The position numbers and the translations under genes are program-made. A stretch of 21,124 nt of DNA, taken from positions 1 through 21,124 of the IMG/VR virus record IMGVR_UViG_3300030380_003613, one strand, 5' to 3'. This stretch comes from a virus. Below the pieces are notes generated by a model. It saw nothing but the letters and a program-made list of their open reading frames with translations, searched no databases and was not told the origin of the DNA. Within the stretch, counting starts at the first letter, position 1. Each line of letters begins with the position of its first letter. This document shows positions 2,493-11,455 of this stretch, piece by piece.

Positions 2493-4274
2493 TTATCTTG
2501 ATAGTACAAATTCTGTTGATGCTGCAAATAACTCTTTAACTCCACCTACATCTGTGACGTTATCTGTTGACATTTTAACTGTTGCAAAAAATCCTTTAAT
2601 ACCAGTTATAGATGTACCAAAATTAACTTCACCTTGAGAAGCTTGACTGTTATTAACTAACTTTGCGTAATATTTATTATTTTTTCTATAAAAACCTTGT
2701 CTATATTGAACACCTGATTCTATATATCCACCTTCTTCATAACTTAACACTTTGTTTGTTTGATCAGCTGACGAACTATAAGATGTAGATCCACTATAAC
2801 CAGAGGAAACTAAATTTTCTGTTTCGTCTGAAGAAAAGGTATCAACTCTCCAACCGCTAGTTCCTTCATAGTTTACTGTTTTAAAGTTTTTACTTATAGA
2901 AGGATTACCATTAAATACAAAAGTTATAGACGATGCTACTGGATCTGCTCCATAAAAAGAATTATGCAACGTAAACTCATCATAATGTTTATAAACCTTA
3001 TTTTCTTTAGTGGTATATAAGTTACCTTTTAAACTTAGTATGCTTGAAGGTCTATAAGTATAAAAAGTAGTCCAACCTTGAACAGTTTCATCAAATGTTA
3101 ATGTATTATAATAATCACTTGTTTCATCAAGTGTTTTACTACCTGAATATTTTTGTATAGAAACAATATAATTGTCTTTGTAATTATCAAAACCACCTTC
3201 TATTTTATCATATTTTGAACTAACAAATCTAATATAAACATTGTTAATGATATTACCACTAGCATCTGTTAAAGGTTGGTTTATAATTGAATTTTCTATA
3301 TATACTAAATCTTGACTAGAAGAAGCACTTGTTTTTTTGCCAATAGTAGTAGCTTTATTTATTAAGGTAATCCAACCAGTATTTGGATTATCAGGATCAA
3401 AATTTAAGTTTATTTCTACAATAGATCCATTAATACTTTCTTCTTCTATTAAAGGATTTGAAGTATCTATTAATATATAGTTACCAAGATTATTATTTGT
3501 AATTAAATCAGATATATTATTATTAATTAATTCTACTTTATAATTACTTGAATAATATTTAGTTGCTGTTTCAGATATTTCAGATAAATTGTCTCTAAAA
3601 TAATCTCTCATGCCATATCCAGATATTTCAGTTATACCATCTCTTGATAATCTTAACACAGCATTTCTATCTTTATCAGAAAAATATCTTCTAAAGCCAA
3701 AAATAGCAAATGATTCTGGATTTCTACTAATACCATATTCACCAGTATAAGGAGTTACCTGTCCTATAACAACATCAGATTGTGTAGATATAGATTGACC
3801 TTCTGCTGAATATATATAGTCTTTATCTATTAAAGCTGTACTTACTTTGTTTTCTTGAAATATAGTTAAGTTATTATCCATAGCATATATAAGCTGTATA
3901 GAACCATTATGTGGATCTACTGCTTTAGTTATGTCTTCTGCTATAGAAAAAACATTAGTATTATTTACATTAGTATTAGAATTAAATATGCCAGAATATA
4001 TTAAAGCATTATTTCTTTTTTTAGCTAAATTGTAAACGTTTGATTTAAAATACTTAGAAGTATATGTACTAGTACTTATAGGCCAGTTAGGATATATTAA
4101 ACTAGCTTTAAAATTACTTTTGAATACTTCAGGGTCATAATCTCTAGCCCACGGAAAACCTGGAAACAAACTAAAGTAACCTGGTCGATTACCACTTGGG
4201 TTAACTAGTAGAGGCGTAGTTACATGCTTTAACCAAAAACTATTATAATATTTTACTTCTAATTTATATGCCAT
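2493..4274 (-). CDS. Nozzle/muzzle-associated structural protein (propeller-type segment), 593 aa
   Basis: This virion protein follows the 1581-aa muzzle gene with a 15-bp gap. Residues ~85-230 carry the pattern I associate with the second half of crAss-like stabilisation/muzzle proteins and other marine podovirus nozzle proteins: LIYSGIFNSN, DITKAVDPHNGSIQLIYAMD, NLTIFQENKVSTALIDKD, QVTPYTGEYGISRNPESFA, RYFSDKDRNAVLRLSRDGIT. These read as beta-propeller blades (the 'RNAVLRLS.DGITEIS' blade). The C-terminal ~350 residues are beta-rich and Ser/Tyr/Asn-rich with a repetitive Ser-rich patch near residues 500-520 (SGYSGSTSYSSSADQ), resembling fibre or surface domains. The stop is TAA and the start is ATG with A-rich upstream sequence (TTTCAAAA ATG) and no Shine-Dalgarno. 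Whether it forms part of the tail tip with the preceding protein or a separate fibre is not decided by the sequence. Confidence 0.8.
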   Translation of the reverse strand: MAYKLEVKYYNSFWLKHVTTPLLVNPSGNRPGYFSLFPGFPWARDYDPEVFKSNFKASLIYPNWPISTSTYTSKYFKSNVYNLAKKRNNALIYSGIFNSNTNVNNTNVFSIAEDITKAVDPHNGSIQLIYAMDNNLTIFQENKVSTALIDKDYIYSAEGQSISTQSDVVIGQVTPYTGEYGISRNPESFAIFGFRRYFSDKDRNAVLRLSRDGITEISGYGMRDYFRDNLSEISETATKYYSSNYKVELINNNISDLITNNNLGNYILIDTSNPLIEEESINGSIVEINLNFDPDNPNTGWITLINKATTIGKKTSASSSQDLVYIENSIINQPLTDASGNIINNVYIRFVSSKYDKIEGGFDNYKDNYIVSIQKYSGSKTLDETSDYYNTLTFDETVQGWTTFYTYRPSSILSLKGNLYTTKENKVYKHYDEFTLHNSFYGADPVASSITFVFNGNPSISKNFKTVNYEGTSGWRVDTFSSDETENLVSSGYSGSTSYSSSADQTNKVLSYEEGGYIESGVQYRQGFYRKNNKYYAKLVNNSQASQGEVNFGTSITGIKGFFATVKMSTDNVTDVGGVKELFAASTEFVLSR

Positions 4275-4289
4275 TTTTGAAAATTAAAT

Positions 4290-7200
4290 TTAAGTCAAAA
4301 CAGACTTTATTATGTATGGATTTGATATTTTAGGTGTTTCTCCAGACAATGTTTGTTCTGCAACAATATATAAAGTCACAACTAACGCATAGCTAGCTTG
4401 TTTTTGGAACTCTATAAAATCATTACCTAATTGTACATATATAAGAGGTGAGTTAGTTCTTATATATGTTCCATTCGCCCCATTTGCAACTTGATCAATT
4501 ATTATATTAACAGTATCACCTATAATTAAACCAGTATCTATAGCAGGGGAATTAGGTGTTAATTTAATAATAGTAGAGTTATTTGGGTCTTTAGAAATTA
4601 AAAAAGGATTTGATACCTGATTCATATAATATCTCATGCTAGCACTGCTGCCTGCCATGTGATCGGTTGTTATCTGTACATAACCTTTATCTATTCTATA
4701 ATTTAAATTATTAGATTCTTGAGTAGAATTAAGTGTTTTATTTAATCTACGTTTAAAATTATTTGTGTTATATTCATTTGCTAATCTAGTATTTTTTAAT
4801 GGTTCTTGGTACATACTGTTTTGATCATTAGCATTGTCCCTTATAACGAAGTCAGGATCATGATCAATTGTGCTAATTATAGGTTTACTAGCTCCAAATG
4901 TATGTGGAATGTTTGGCCCTTGCCCATACTGAGGAAATAAGTTTGTATTTTTGTTAAACTTTTCTAAACCATTAGAAGAAAATGTTATTTCACCTAAAAC
5001 ATTTACTCTCCCGTTCTCATTTCCTCCATTTTGTTTAGCTATTGGGTAATAATCTATTCTAGAACCCCTATTTGCGGCTGTGTAGTATTTACTACGTGCT
5101 ATAGAGTAATAACCTGGAACTGTTATTTTTTGAAAAATACGAATTCCATTAAATGTGTTGTAACATCCAGGAAGACCAATATTATTATCACAGTGAGAAA
5201 CACGTCGGATGTTGATATGGTTAGAACCAGTGGTTGTTATACTCCAATCACTTGTAGTATAACTATTAAAAGCTTGAAGAGTTATTTTAGGGCCTTTAAA
5301 ACCTTTAGATATATCACTAGTATCTTTTAAGTCCCAAACTAAAAAATTATTAAGATTTCCTGGATCATTATAATTAGGATTGTCAACTATTTCAACATGG
5401 TTCCAAAATCTAGCAAGTTTAATATACTGGTTAGTTGTACTTGTCCATTCACTCCAATCTTTTAAAAAGTTTCTTATAGATTCTAATTGATCACCATCAC
5501 CTTCAGAAGTTAAAGTATTGTATCTATTAGTCCAATCAGTAGCTGATTTATTAGGTATACCTATACTACCTATAAACGGTCTAACATCGCTTAAATTAAT
5601 TCTTTTTTCAACATCACCTTTTTGTATACCGTTTTGAGTTAATTTAAAATTAAGTTTAAACTCTATTCCAGCATCAAATCTATTTAAAGGTCTTTTAGAT
5701 ATTATTTTATATACTGGTGGTAGCTGTGGAGATATTATATTTTCTTGTAGTGAAAAAGGATTACTTGTATCAGAATTATCAAAATTACCAGATAAAAATC
5801 CTTTTTGCCTTAAATAATTAGGTACAGAACCAGAACTGCTATTAACGTTTTGCATTACAGAAAAACTAGAACTTGAGTCAGATTTATATTCAACTGAATC
5901 TAAAGTTATTCTACAAGAATTATCATTTACTATATTACCAAAGTCATCAACAATTTGAAACTCATTAGAAATTATTTCACCAAACTTTTCTGTTTCTTGA
6001 AGTAAAGGAATATCTATTGGAGATATGCCAGAAGCTATATTAATTGACGATTGTGTAAACTCTATATTAAAATTTAAATCTTCTATAGTTCCAGATGTGG
6101 ATGTTTCATAGTATATATCTAAGCTAGACTTTGTAGGTTTAGTTTCAAATATTGTTAATTCTTTAGCAAAATTATTTGTTTTTTGATCTTCTTCACTAAA
6201 ACCAATTCTTTTATTTGTAGATATAGTTGTTATTATAGGATTTTTATTATTTTCTAAAAAGAAAGGATCTACTTCACCTACATTACCTGGATATATATAA
6301 TAATCATTATCATAAGCAGATCCATCAGCTCTTTGTGCAGCCGGACCTATTGTAGTATATTTTAAATTTACATTTTTATATATAGTCCAATCACCTAGTT
6401 CTCTAAATTGTCTTATACTAGTTATATTAGAGTTTTCATAAGGGGCTAAAGCTTGACCATTTAAATCAGGGTATTTTTTTGAGTTTTCATCTATATTAAA
6501 ATTAGTTTGATTAACCCTATTTATTAATTCAACACTTGATGAATATATGTTATCAGAAGGGCCAACATCTTTTAAGTCTCTAGGTATTTTATTTATATTA
6601 TCATTAAAAAGCGCTATACTAGCTAAAGATTTAGTTCTTAAAAAAGATAAAGGTTCTGTCCATTTTGTAAATTTAATATTACCACTTACAGCTCCAGGTG
6701 TGTATATATTATAATAGTCTTGCTCTTGTTGTTTTACAACAACTTTATAACTATACCAACCAAGTGGATTTTGCTCACTCCACAAACCAACATAATCTCC
6801 ATTTTTATCAGTTGGTATTTTTTCATCAAACTCTATAGTTATAGAATTACCAAGCCAAGAGGTAGGATCTGCTCCTCCATTTGAATATGGCGCAAAAAAC
6901 GTAGAGTTAAAACCTTCAGCATCGTTAGCTAAAATAACATTAGAGCTTCTACCATATCTATCTTGAAGGACTATACCTGCTTGATATGATCTACCTTGTT
7001 TTAGTGTGTGATTATTAAATTCTACACCAGTTAAGTCTGTTATGTTTTCTGATGTTGATAAAAAAGATTTTGATTGAAAACTTACTTTATATTTTAAACT
7101 GTTTGGAGACTCAGTTGTTTGCTGAAAATTACCATATATAACTCTATTACCTACAGATTCTTGAGTTTTAGCTTTAATTGGAACTATATCACTTACTCTT

Positions 7201-9035
7201 ACTATTTCTTTTTCTGGTAATACTTTTATAGGTTTTTGTGATTTATAATCATGTATATAAGTACTACTTAACTTAGTAACTTTAACATATATATCATTAG
7301 TAACACCATCTCCATTTCCAACAAATAGCGATTCACCTATTTTATAACCATACCCACTATATGCTATTTCAACAGATGTTACAGGACCAGTTGAACCACC
7401 ACCACTTAAGTCTACACCAGTAACTTTAACAGTAAGACCTTCACCATCGCCTCCATATGTTGTTTTATATATTTTATTTAAAACATAACCACCTTGATTG
7501 CTAGGTGTTCTACTAGTATCTATTTCAATTTCGTCTGGAGCTCCTTTTATTAAACTAGGCTTAGAAAAATCTATATCTGTAATAACTTTTAAAGCTTGCT
7601 CATCTGATGCTTTATATAATATTTGTAATTCTTTAACCTTAAGCTTATCAAACATTTCATTAACTCTACAAGGCAAATCCATAACTAAACCAGCAGAAGT
7701 AATTTGATTGACCATAAAATCTACATTACTAGATTCTTTTGTATTATTTAAATCATCGCCTATAAAATAACCAAATTGTTTTGGTGTAAAAGCATGTTGT
7801 GAAAATGGAGCAGACAAAGAATATTCATCATCGTCGTATTTGAATCTATAGCTAAATCTTACAAACTTTTCTTTTAATAAATCTTCATCACCTACATTAT
7901 CAAAGTTTTCATTATAATCAGGATTTCTTAAGCTAAAAGCAATATTAGCAACAGAACCATCGGTAAGATTCCAATCTAATTGATTTTCAAAATTAAGTAT
8001 AGGAGTTCCATTTGCTGATTGCAAACGAAAACTACCAAACTCAGTAACGCTTTCTAAAAAAGCATCTTGCAAACCATTTTCTCCATATATACTAACTTTA
8101 ACTTTGTATTGATTAGTATGTAATTGACCAGTATTTTGATTAAAAAAGAAAAAAGAATTACCATTATTTGTCCCTTGACTTTCACTTAAAAAATTAGTTA
8201 AATCAGTAAAAAAACTATTATTAACGCCGTCAAGACTTGATTTATTTTCTTTATCTTGAGAATTTACATTAAAAAAATATCTACCACTATCCTCGTTAAC
8301 TAGCACGGATGCTGGAACCGCTATAAAGGGAGGTAAAAATTCATCTACTTCGTTTTTTAAAGTTTTTTCAGCATATAAAGGATCTTGTTTATCTAAGTAT
8401 TTTAAAAAATTAATAGAACTGTAAGGAGCATATTTAGCAACTGATATATGGTCTTCATTATAATAATATCCTTTGTTGTTTTCATCTACAAAACTATCAC
8501 CTATAGCTCTATCTATATTAATTTTTCTTGGTTGATTTCTATTATCAGTCCAAAACATTAAATTTTCTATTATACTAATATTTATTATTGGATTATTTTT
8601 AGAAAAATTTAAAAAACTTCCACTTAATAATATTTTAGAATCAGATACTTGGCTATTTTTATTAAAAGAAACATAAGCTATATAGTTTAAAACAGGATTT
8701 TTTGTAAATGTAAAGTTACCATCATTAAAAGATCCATCACTTACTACTCTTGCGACATCGTTAGATATACCTTCATTGTTATTTGTTATAAATAAAAATA
8801 TTCTATTATTTGCAGTGTCAGAATAATAACCTATTATTTCTAAATCTTTATTATCTAAACCAAATGAACTAATATCTACATTACCTCTAATATTTTCTAA
8901 AGCACCAACATCAGCCCCTTCAGAAGTACTAACACTTATATTTTGACCATCTCTATATTCACCATTTGGTATTATTCTAGAGTCTAAGTCTTTATTCATT
9001 TTAGACTTGAGAAAAGTATTTTTAATTTCTGGCAT
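4290..9035 (-). CDS. Tail muzzle/nozzle (stabilisation) protein, 1581 aa
   Basis: This is the largest gene in the window. The N-terminus reads NTFLKSKMNKDLDSRIIPNG followed by EYRDGQNISVSTSEGADVG and ALENIRGN, then IIGYYSDTANNRIFLFITNN. This is a signature I recall from crAss-like stabilisation/muzzle proteins and equivalent marine podovirus tail proteins, which take the place of the T7 gp12 nozzle. Residues ~676-700 carry a second signature, HTLKQGRSYQAGIVLQDRYG, a fibronectin-like domain. An insertion at about residues 515-595 is a Gly-rich 'GYGYKIGE' beta module also found in the two preceding proteins. The remainder is Asn/Ser/Tyr-rich beta sequence with no enzyme motif. It starts 2 bp after the stop of the 462-aa ring protein. 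The propeller expected in the later part of such proteins seems to sit in the next gene. Confidence 0.85.
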   Translation of the reverse strand: MPEIKNTFLKSKMNKDLDSRIIPNGEYRDGQNISVSTSEGADVGALENIRGNVDISSFGLDNKDLEIIGYYSDTANNRIFLFITNNNEGISNDVARVVSDGSFNDGNFTFTKNPVLNYIAYVSFNKNSQVSDSKILLSGSFLNFSKNNPIINISIIENLMFWTDNRNQPRKINIDRAIGDSFVDENNKGYYYNEDHISVAKYAPYSSINFLKYLDKQDPLYAEKTLKNEVDEFLPPFIAVPASVLVNEDSGRYFFNVNSQDKENKSSLDGVNNSFFTDLTNFLSESQGTNNGNSFFFFNQNTGQLHTNQYKVKVSIYGENGLQDAFLESVTEFGSFRLQSANGTPILNFENQLDWNLTDGSVANIAFSLRNPDYNENFDNVGDEDLLKEKFVRFSYRFKYDDDEYSLSAPFSQHAFTPKQFGYFIGDDLNNTKESSNVDFMVNQITSAGLVMDLPCRVNEMFDKLKVKELQILYKASDEQALKVITDIDFSKPSLIKGAPDEIEIDTSRTPSNQGGYVLNKIYKTTYGGDGEGLTVKVTGVDLSGGGSTGPVTSVEIAYSGYGYKIGESLFVGNGDGVTNDIYVKVTKLSSTYIHDYKSQKPIKVLPEKEIVRVSDIVPIKAKTQESVGNRVIYGNFQQTTESPNSLKYKVSFQSKSFLSTSENITDLTGVEFNNHTLKQGRSYQAGIVLQDRYGRSSNVILANDAEGFNSTFFAPYSNGGADPTSWLGNSITIEFDEKIPTDKNGDYVGLWSEQNPLGWYSYKVVVKQQEQDYYNIYTPGAVSGNIKFTKWTEPLSFLRTKSLASIALFNDNINKIPRDLKDVGPSDNIYSSSVELINRVNQTNFNIDENSKKYPDLNGQALAPYENSNITSIRQFRELGDWTIYKNVNLKYTTIGPAAQRADGSAYDNDYYIYPGNVGEVDPFFLENNKNPIITTISTNKRIGFSEEDQKTNNFAKELTIFETKPTKSSLDIYYETSTSGTIEDLNFNIEFTQSSINIASGISPIDIPLLQETEKFGEIISNEFQIVDDFGNIVNDNSCRITLDSVEYKSDSSSSFSVMQNVNSSSGSVPNYLRQKGFLSGNFDNSDTSNPFSLQENIISPQLPPVYKIISKRPLNRFDAGIEFKLNFKLTQNGIQKGDVEKRINLSDVRPFIGSIGIPNKSATDWTNRYNTLTSEGDGDQLESIRNFLKDWSEWTSTTNQYIKLARFWNHVEIVDNPNYNDPGNLNNFLVWDLKDTSDISKGFKGPKITLQAFNSYTTSDWSITTTGSNHINIRRVSHCDNNIGLPGCYNTFNGIRIFQKITVPGYYSIARSKYYTAANRGSRIDYYPIAKQNGGNENGRVNVLGEITFSSNGLEKFNKNTNLFPQYGQGPNIPHTFGASKPIISTIDHDPDFVIRDNANDQNSMYQEPLKNTRLANEYNTNNFKRRLNKTLNSTQESNNLNYRIDKGYVQITTDHMAGSSASMRYYMNQVSNPFLISKDPNNSTIIKLTPNSPAIDTGLIIGDTVNIIIDQVANGANGTYIRTNSPLIYVQLGNDFIEFQKQASYALVVTLYIVAEQTLSGETPKISNPYIIKSVLT

Positions 9036-9037
9036 AA

Positions 9038-10426
9038 TTAATGTTTAATCCATTTACCTTTGTTTCTAAACACTTGAGATATTTCTTCTATCTTAATATT
9101 ACTTAATCTTATTTTAGCGTTTCTAAGAGCGCTAGAACGCTCTCTCTTATACCTATTGATTATATACTCAGGTATATTTGCTCTACCTGATAATATAGCG
9201 TGCGCTATATGCATGTACATAGCTTGTTCTGCCATTTTAGGTACTTTAGTGTCTGCATCTATAGCTAAACCATCTGATATATATTCAAATATAATAAGTT
9301 TACCAACTAAATCACTTGTAAAAGAAAATGTACCAAGTCTTTCGTTTATAGTAAACTTACCGTTTATTTGAGCTTCTTCAGGTTGAAGTCCATATCTTTG
9401 ACCAAGACCAAACCTTCTATTAGGATGTCTATAATCATCAGTTAACATATCTTCATTAAGACTTTGATTAGCCCATCTATCTTCTGCTTGAGAATTGTTA
9501 GCCTCTAAGTTTTCTTCATATTCATTTTGAGTTGGTATACCATCAGCGTCTTGTATTAATAAATCTGTAGGATTAGAAGTAACTCTAGTTGGATATATAA
9601 TATGCTTAGCACCAGCATCGTCTATCCAAGAACATTTAACATAGTTAACATAATCTTGTGGTATAGGTATAGATAAACTAGGTGGTATGTTTAATTCTTG
9701 AGATTTAATACTTTTTAATGTATCGTATGAAAACTCTTGTAAACCTCTTTTAGCATGAAACATTATATCAGTTCTTTTACAACTAGATATAATTTTACCA
9801 ACTCCAACATAACCAACTATAAAGTTATTTATTATATCATCTAATGTTGTGTAAGAATAACTACCATAATTGTTATTTATAGCAGATTGCTTTAACTGTA
9901 TGTAAAAATGTCCAAGATAACCACCAGGAAGAGTATCTCTTAACATAACTTTGTTTTGAGACACATATGAAAGATTTTCATCTAATTCAACAAAAGATCC
10001 ACTAGCTGCTACGGTTAATGTAAAAGAAGATGGACCACCAGCTCTGTTAGATATTTGAACAGTGTCACCATTAACGTAACCAAAACCAGGATCATGTATT
10101 GTAGAAGCTCCATCAGCTCCAGTAATTTTAAATTTTAAACCAGATCCTTGACCACCAACTGGTTGTACTATATCACCTATGGTAAATCCACTACCAACTG
10201 TAATTTGTGTTATAGCAGACACTCTTTTAGAAAATTTATAATAAATAGTATAGTTAGAATTAGAACTTATTTGATTTCCAGATGTATCATATGCACTAAT
10301 AAACTCTGTGTTGAAGTTAGATATATCAAAAGGTATTTCACCGCCTGAAGAACCTGTATTATCTAATACTCCAAAATCTTTTTGACCTGCGTAATATTGT
10401 GCGTTAGTTTCTTTTAATAGTCCCAT
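9038..10426 (-). CDS. Ring/connector (tail adaptor) protein, 462 aa
   Basis: The N-terminus MGLLKETNAQYYAGQKDFGV and the core TLDDIINNFIVGYVGVGKII with FHAKRGLQEFSYDTLKSIKS (residues ~195-245) match the pattern of head-tail connector/ring proteins of crAss-like and related podoviruses, analogous to T7 gp11 (gatekeeper). The KRGLQEFSYDT helix is typical of the tubular adaptor fold. Residues ~70-142 hold a Gly-rich beta module (GQGSGLKFKITG, GFGYVNGDTVQIS) that looks inserted between the N-terminal strand and the adaptor core. The C-terminus is basic and helical (NRYKRERSSALRNAKIRLSN). The ATG is preceded by AAAATCTTAATAA without a Shine-Dalgarno, 3 bp after the preceding stop. The product would sit below the portal and bind the muzzle. 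Confidence 0.8.
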   Translation of the reverse strand: MGLLKETNAQYYAGQKDFGVLDNTGSSGGEIPFDISNFNTEFISAYDTSGNQISSNSNYTIYYKFSKRVSAITQITVGSGFTIGDIVQPVGGQGSGLKFKITGADGASTIHDPGFGYVNGDTVQISNRAGGPSSFTLTVAASGSFVELDENLSYVSQNKVMLRDTLPGGYLGHFYIQLKQSAINNNYGSYSYTTLDDIINNFIVGYVGVGKIISSCKRTDIMFHAKRGLQEFSYDTLKSIKSQELNIPPSLSIPIPQDYVNYVKCSWIDDAGAKHIIYPTRVTSNPTDLLIQDADGIPTQNEYEENLEANNSQAEDRWANQSLNEDMLTDDYRHPNRRFGLGQRYGLQPEEAQINGKFTINERLGTFSFTSDLVGKLIIFEYISDGLAIDADTKVPKMAEQAMYMHIAHAILSGRANIPEYIINRYKRERSSALRNAKIRLSNIKIEEISQVFRNKGKWIKH

Positions 10427-10429
10427 TTA

Positions 10430-11455
10430 TTAAGATTTTTCGTTTACTTCTTCTTCTTGTATTTTTTGTGCTGCAACTTGAACAACTGAAGGATCATTTA
10501 TAACTACTCCAGAATATAATAATATTCTTAAAACAAGTTCTGTTTGCTCTGAGTTGTGTAAATCAAAGTTACTAAAACCTCTAGTAGTTGAAGGCATCAA
10601 CATATTATTATTTATAGTTATAGTTGGTTTAGGATCGTTAATTGATCCTCCAAAACTTGCTGGGTCAAAAGATATTTCATCACCAACTTTATACCCTGTT
10701 CCTATATTTTCTATTATTATAGATGTTATAGTTGGTGGTGTTAATCCTGTATCTACGGTAAATAAGAAAGTAGCTCCAGAGCCACTGCCTGTTGTACTTT
10801 GTTGAGTTAAGCTAGATAAAGGTTGTGTCGCGCCTGGAGAAACGTTTAATGTAAAATCAATTAATTCAGCTCCCTGAATGAAAGAGGTCGCATCAAAAAC
10901 ATAATCAGTGAAAGTGTATTGTCCTAAATTACCTATTTCATATCCCCATCTAACGTCAGTTGGTTTTTTTACATATTGAGATTTTATATCACTAACTATA
11001 GTACTAGGATATACTTCAACTTTATTATCTTCGTATAAATATATTGGTTTTAAATTTGTTGGTGCTGTAAGTGGAGATTTTCTTATGTTGTAAAATTCAG
11101 CTCTACCAACTCTTTGAACTTCAACTGGCATAAAGCCAGGTCTTTCATATGTTAAAGAACCTAATCTATATAAATCACTAGGTAAAGTAAATGTGTTTGC
11201 GCCTGTAGAAATAGCGTCTGATTCAGTTTTAAATTCTGCAATTTTTTCATCTGTAATGGCTATACGATCAGAATATTCCATATCACTTTGTGGTATACGA
11301 ACTTGTTGGTTTAAGTCTTCAAAATATCTTTCAAATATTTGTCTTTGAACTTGTGTACCAATTTTGTTAAATTCGTCTGGCGTCATATAACCACGCTGTT
11401 CACTGTTTAGTATAAGTAATACTGTTCGATATACTGTATCTACGCTTATTGCCAT
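10430..11455 (-). CDS. Ring/connector protein, 341 aa
   Basis: The N-terminal 60 residues (VDTVYRTVLLILNSEQRGYM, TPDEFNKIGTQVQRQIFERY, FEDLNQQVR) form a helical signature that I recall from the protein following the capsid genes in crAss-like and related Bacteroidota podoviruses, where structural work places ring proteins between portal and muzzle. Residues ~85-190 are beta-rich (LPSDLYRLGSLTY, VEVQRVGRAEFYN). Residues ~201-285 are a Gly/Ser-rich beta module (TTGSGSGATFLFTVDTG, IGTGYKVGDEISF) that interrupts the core. The C-terminal helices (FDLHNSEQTELVLRILLYSG, VVQVAAQKIQEEE) resume it. The gene is the first downstream of a terminator hairpin, so it may rely on read-through or on a promoter I could not identify. 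Confidence 0.8.
   Translation of the reverse strand: MAISVDTVYRTVLLILNSEQRGYMTPDEFNKIGTQVQRQIFERYFEDLNQQVRIPQSDMEYSDRIAITDEKIAEFKTESDAISTGANTFTLPSDLYRLGSLTYERPGFMPVEVQRVGRAEFYNIRKSPLTAPTNLKPIYLYEDNKVEVYPSTIVSDIKSQYVKKPTDVRWGYEIGNLGQYTFTDYVFDATSFIQGAELIDFTLNVSPGATQPLSSLTQQSTTGSGSGATFLFTVDTGLTPPTITSIIIENIGTGYKVGDEISFDPASFGGSINDPKPTITINNNMLMPSTTRGFSNFDLHNSEQTELVLRILLYSGVVINDPSVVQVAAQKIQEEEVNEKS

Follow-up and report, generated by a model that had tools for sequence, protein, structure and literature searches.

Why should three successive tail proteins of one virus carry the same small glycine-rich module? The question is raised by the window, the whole 21,124-nucleotide (nt) stretch of virus record IMGVR_UViG_3300030380_003613 analysed here, a 21-kb fragment of a crAss-like podovirus. 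The proteins are R1, R2 and the N-terminal part of the muzzle (muzzle-N), whose identities are discussed below. A preliminary description, made from the DNA alone, had proposed that one module recurs in all three and that it is a mobile decoration. The recurrence is borne out by profile searches in which copies from one protein detect copies in the others at E values near 1e-12, against about 0.1 for decoys. We consider it likely, with a probability of about 0.7, that this is a promiscuous beta-module that travels as an in-frame cassette and serves as an outer tail domain making weak, variable contact.

One module in three proteins

To compare the segments we used related loci, 80 in number and drawn from viral contigs (individual loci are given L numbers). 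The leave-window-out profile is built without the window and the three loci nearest to it; the muzzle-only profile is built from muzzle copies of other phages; the R1-only profile is built from 33 R1 inserts, the window's included. The window's copies, with the E values at which the first two profiles detect them, are as follows.

10577..10906, minus strand: module in R1, residues 184–293; leave-window-out 5.8e-16, muzzle-only 1.9e-12; lacking in 41 of 74 distinct R1 relatives.
9995..10228, minus strand: module in the accessory domain of R2, residues 67–144; muzzle-only 5.9e-13, leave-window-out 7.9e-10.
7263..7562, minus strand: module in muzzle-N, residues 492–591; leave-window-out 3.3e-7.

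How alike are these three segments? Aligned directly, only weakly. Ranked against some 9,000 shuffled segments, the R1–muzzle pair comes 12th, the R2–muzzle pair 6th and the R1–R2 pair 584th, a likeness that is suggestive only. The family profiles give a clear answer. Besides the detections listed above, the R1-only profile detects the R2 and muzzle copies of the window with E values of about 6e-5, the best reversed open reading frame (ORF) decoy scoring 0.1, and for the corresponding segments of relatives it reaches values down to 1.3e-14, the muzzle copies lying at the low end. Because the family profiles cross-detect the copies while the reversed decoys fail, we conclude from sequence comparison that a single homologous module is present in R1, R2 and the muzzle. 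Their limits lie close to those first proposed, except in the muzzle, where the module starts some 20 residues before residue ~515, the start given in the preliminary description.

The invariant positions of the module are the glycines of GxGxG and GxGY, and the Gly/Tyr/Asp pattern of GxGxG and GxGYxxGD is retained as the remainder diverges. Over its length of ~80–110 residues the module probably comprises two units of ~40 residues, each of the form VTSVTI..xGxGYxxGDxIxI..GGSGSGlxvxV; halves 1 and 2 align in register, if weakly (hhalign E 3e-4, probability 38%). The stretch GSGFTIGDIVQ of R2, noticed earlier as a first, copy-like occurrence, fits this two-unit arrangement. Neither Pfam nor NCBIfam holds a model for the family. 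A search of PDB sequences with the module profile returned repeat and antibody artefacts as its top matches, together with weak matches to gp18 sheath proteins (E 0.5–2.9), and none of 22 module members matches an immunoglobulin-family Pfam model.

Insertion and absence

Is the module an integral part of the proteins that bear it? In R1 the insert is present at the window's site in 33 of the 74 distinct relatives. The R1 proteins of L014, L016–L018 and L030 align over residues 1–183 and 294–341 with almost nothing in between, the flanks of insert-free proteins meeting across a few residues. By these alignments the R1 segment is an insertion, cleanly missing in about half of the relatives. At residues ~492–591 of muzzle-N, L005, L014, L032, L034 and others have a short stretch instead. 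The third copy lies within a larger accessory domain.

9875..10384, minus strand: accessory N-terminal beta-domain of R2, residues ~15–184; wholly absent from the 292-aa (amino acid) R2 of L010, L011, L020, L034 and others.

In other relatives the N-terminus of R2 is replaced by different domains. Among the loci compared, only the window and L002 carry the module at this R2 site, while in L053 and L064 it lies in a differently formed N-terminal region. The region ~15–184 as a whole occurs in several unrelated-looking forms, or not at all, even among close relatives; the window, L004 and L011 represent three different states.

The preliminary description had the module interrupting a conserved core in each protein. 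For R1 and the muzzle the module-free relatives bear this out; in R2 the module is nested in the accessory beta-domain and not in the core. Comparison with such relatives could have revealed the segments to be integral, non-homologous parts of each core fold. The opposite was found. Across the 60 loci in which all three proteins are readable, near-duplicate contigs included, 20 carry no module in any of them. Loci with the module in a single protein number 10 for R1, 10 for the muzzle (one or two copies) and 2 for R2; a further 16 combine R1 and muzzle copies, and 2 have it in all three proteins.

Turnover and exchange

If the module is dispensable, how often does it come and go? On a tree of the R1 core, presence and absence of the insert require 7 changes, at least 5 of them forced by well-supported branches; the tree is unrooted, so these changes do not separate gain from loss. 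Individual pairs of alleles capture the process. L025 and L030 are 97.5% (left flank) and 91% (right flank) identical in nt sequence, with the insert present in one and absent from the other. The window and its nearest neighbour, L004, have R1 flanks that are 94 and 93% identical in nt and inserts that are 53% identical. L028 and L012 share 98% nt identity in the left flank of R1 and 48% in the insert. Conversely, L028 and L031 share 60% in the left flank and 66% in the insert (64% in aa). Since the identity of the insert thus sometimes exceeds that of the flank in distantly related backgrounds, exchange is indicated. Hypermutation alone was considered as the source of R1 insert divergence and is not favoured, because in this last pair the inserts are more alike than the flanks.

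Nor is the module confined to one site in each protein. In R1 a further site lies after residue ~92 (L050 and L054), and in the muzzle there are sites at ~56, ~216, ~753 and ~850 besides ~492. On the module tree the copies at muzzle site 56 of L069–L075 nest within the R1 copies (support 95), as do some of those at site 492. The best match of one muzzle-56 copy to an R1 insert has 45% aa identity over 86 residues (E 6e-20). The copies nevertheless group mostly by site, with 9 changes where shuffles need 31.8, which argues that site-bound inheritance and same-site exchange are commoner than jumps to new sites.

Close relatives that lack the module cleanly, its several insertion sites, the exchange of cassettes and its copies in unrelated phages (see below) together lend strong support to a module that is gained, lost and swapped between relatives, as the preliminary description had supposed in calling it mobile.

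Other domains occupy R1 as well. In the R1 of L067 (8648–9649) the second R1 site, at residues ~81–186, holds a different repeat-like domain (YYITSTNKYNTFTLS...) missed by the module profile; in appearance it is close to a further repeat widespread among proteins of marine phages. The 437-aa R1 of L074 (8652–9965) has an insert of ~200 residues at ~150–345 that the module profile does not recognise. The genome of L018 lacks the module in R1, R2 and the muzzle. The same genome encodes (L104, 1816–4968) a protein of 1050 aa that has several domains of laminin-G/concanavalin type, in 4 matched stretches, and the module at its C-terminus.

The module in other phages

Does the module occur beyond the crAss-like podoviruses? 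A tblastn search with one muzzle copy found the sheath proteins of Sinorhizobium phage phiM9, Agrobacterium phage Atu_ph04 and Synechococcus phage S-CAM1, and ‘YadA domain’ structural proteins of cyanophages; the same kind of search of phages with one R1 module found no match. With the mod3 profile, against a small database, the E values are 1.1e-14 for the S-CAM1 sheath, 2.7e-13 for a large structural protein of Syn33, 2.4e-12 for the phiM9 sheath and 7e-9 for Syn33 gp14. Whole records yield 17 matches in Syn33, 11 in S-CAM1 and 3 in phiM9, and none at threshold in phi38:1, elemo or T4. Carriers in T4-like phages include gp18, gp14 and gp8 besides further wedge proteins and large structural ones; neck, sheath and baseplate are all represented. 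Module members match PHROGs named baseplate wedge, head closure Hc2, tail fibre and virion structural protein, and the structural tail and neck proteins of T4-like marine and rhizobial myophages (PHROGs 5342, 6005, 438, 32294 and 460) belong to the same profile family, their best matches having E values of 1e-11 to 1e-15. These phages have contractile tails, and some bear long arrays of the module in one protein, whereas the podovirus ring and muzzle proteins compared here have one or two copies each.

Where does the module sit in a sheath protein? In phiM9 it comes directly after the N-terminal core segment, at the position that domain I (PF22639) occupies in T4 gp18, and the alignment with T4 there runs into that domain; the equivalence of position concerns the sheath copies and not those of the window. 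PF22639 is not among the Pfam matches of the phiM9 and S-CAM1 sheaths. The module profile scores 17.4 bits on T4 domain I, the best of 2000 shuffles scoring 10.9. From this score domain I is probably a distant relative of the module, though what aligns is essentially one motif of ~20 residues.

The proteins and their neighbours

Which proteins are these? The genes lie on the minus strand of the window in the order terminase, portal, 390-aa protein, major capsid protein, 263-aa protein, R1, R2, muzzle-N and muzzle-C, the same order as in Cellulophaga phage phi38:1 and the Flavobacterium elemo phages. The terminase corresponds to phrog_6681 and the portal to phrog_6547, and the major capsid protein (phrog_13704) is assigned by position.

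10430..11455, minus strand: R1, tail-barrel ring protein by its AlphaFold model, which was compared with phicrAss001 chains, 341 aa; phrog_14543, E 5e-33.
9038..10426, minus strand: R2, second protein, at a connector/ring position by phi38:1 gene order, 462 aa; phrog_13977, E 7e-39 over residues 184–449.
4290..9035, minus strand: muzzle-N, N-terminal muzzle ORF, 1581 aa; phrog_14478, E 3e-42; alignment to the phi38:1 muzzle over 20% of the query.
2493..4274, minus strand: muzzle-C, C-terminal muzzle ORF, 593 aa; PF25729 crAss_MUZ_C at 29.2 bits (cut-off 27); phrog_14478 positions 949–1148.

The AlphaFold model of R1, with a predicted local distance difference test score (pLDDT) of 84, matches the phicrAss001 tail-barrel chains 7qoj_D/F/E at E values of 6.6e-7 to 1.4e-5, the match to 7qoj_D (6.6e-7) having a probability of 1.00. 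Adaptor rings of other podoviruses are matched also; at the level of sequence, a profile search of the PDB did not match R1 to the solved ring chains. By predicted fold R1 is a crAss-type ring. The model of R2 is poor (pLDDT 55), and a Foldseek comparison, meaningless for so poor a model, gave no match; synteny and phrog_13977 place R2 as a putative connector. The picture of three stacked rings is accordingly imprecise: R1 is a ring by predicted fold, R2 a connector by synteny, and the third protein is no ring but the muzzle, split over two ORFs.

In phicrAss001 the tail barrel is made of R1–R4 with the muzzle gp44 (PMC10172136); R1 of the window shares the ring fold, and muzzle-C the crAss muzzle C-terminal domain. 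The available passages of that structure paper make no mention of the module. The cultured relatives phi38:1 and elemo lack it and have a one-ORF muzzle, whereas in the window (2493–9035) and some 50 related loci the muzzle occupies two adjacent ORFs, the gap between them being mostly −1 to 45 nt. Found throughout the clade, this looks like a stable gene fission. Three loci have a second R1-like gene ahead of R1 (L067 7261–8004, L080 9227–10000 and L081 4596–5369), as if to supply an additional ring, by analogy with the multi-ring barrel of phicrAss001.

What might the module do?

We propose that the module inserts into loops of those tail proteins that tolerate insertion, and that it moves as an in-frame cassette. 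Gain, loss or replacement at the same loop would occur by recombination in the conserved flanks, and transfer to a new loop or to another tail protein would be rarer. Most likely the module folds as a separate beta-domain on the tail exterior, where it would add surface not needed for assembly. What that surface does is a guess: it may touch material of the host surface, or appendages of the tail, in a weak and variable way. An outward-facing decoration is plausible, because many relatives do without the module and the copies in T4-like sheaths sit at the place of domain I, a non-core domain of gp18. The outer-face position is argued by analogy: a published study of sheath proteins places additional domains away from the tube and cites those of T4 as non-essential for sheath formation (PMC9230969). 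Promiscuous Ig-like phage domains are likewise inserted in many unrelated virion proteins, horizontally exchanged and dispensable for the core (PMC9230969; PMC10684548).

Several observations weigh against this proposal. Those relatives in which these proteins bear the module are metagenomic contigs. The R1 insert is modelled as beta strands, mostly with good pLDDT, and matches no solved domain there; the R2 model is of poor quality. The tie to T4 domain I is slender, with an hhalign probability of 58% over 21 columns, and the gathering cut-off of Pfam Gp18_dom_I is not reached by any of 22 module members (best E 0.01, in 5 of the 22). Finally, residues 211–360 and 961–1581 of muzzle-N, with nt identities of ~0.43–0.59 between close relatives, are as variable as the module and contain none, so that high variability by itself does not set the module apart.

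Might the modules instead be docking or cementing elements for virion parts such as tail-fibre hubs, whiskers or neighbouring rings, their variation following exchange of the partner? We take this seriously, if as an improbable alternative, since passages of the phicrAss001 paper describe fibre hubs carried by R1 and R2 (PMC10172136), and the copies in T4-like phages are found in proteins of the neck, wedge and sheath, several of which serve for attachment or at interfaces. Against it, a third of the readable relatives (20 of 60) have no module in any of the three proteins, alleles with and without the insert share nearly identical R1 backgrounds, and no co-varying partner gene was seen, although no systematic search was made. 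The same abundance of module-free relatives, together with the very fast divergence of the module, would suit nearly neutral passengers, an insertion-tolerant fold spread by recombination and free of any selected role. We regard this as less likely still: the GxGxG and GxGYxxGD pattern survives amid the divergence, reading frames stay open in dozens of lineages, and distant phages hold many copies.

Two further explanations we reject. Descent from a module in a common ancestor of paralogous tail proteins would account for the grouping of copies by site, much inheritance being site-bound. But the insertion sites are not equivalent between proteins, alignment of the R1 profile with the R2 profile is no better than chance, and, decisively, muzzle-56 and some muzzle-492 copies nest among those of R1 while the outgroups phi38:1 and elemo are free of the module in their whole records. 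Compositional convergence, in which unrelated Gly/Ser/Thr-rich loops merely look alike, has in its favour the weak raw pairwise scores of the window's three segments; against it, profiles from held-out copies reach 1e-12, a level that reversed sequences with the same composition fail to attain. Neither of the two retains any appreciable probability.

Implications

Promiscuous beta-domains on phage virions and the shuffling of domains are already known (PMC9230969; PMC10684548). What appears to be new is this module family, which has no name, its deployment in ring and muzzle proteins of crAss-like phages, and the pairs of alleles in which exchange is caught in the act. We found no paper on the module in these proteins in the open-access literature, a coverage outside which most subscription journals fall. 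The phage domain mosaicism catalogued in those papers centres on fibres, spikes, endolysins and polymerases (PMC9230969; PMC10684548), and discussion is usually limited to the first three of these; here it reaches ring and muzzle proteins. Barrel and nozzle proteins, which one would expect assembly to constrain, bear a module that is present in some and absent from others of nearly identical alleles. Its family extends from crAss-like podoviruses to the T4-like phages of cyanobacteria and rhizobia, and a definition of it would improve the annotation of many ‘structural protein’ genes.

Tentatively, one may go further and imagine a shared pool of interchangeable modules, swapped among lineages and among ring, connector and muzzle proteins, that varies the exterior of the whole tail in this crAss-like clade. 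We doubt that the evidence carries us so far; if it were true, recombination would diversify the entire tail surface just as fibres diversify the tip, each virion bearing many copies. The alleles of one ring protein with and without the module offer a clean natural experiment on the purpose of decorating the surface of a tail.

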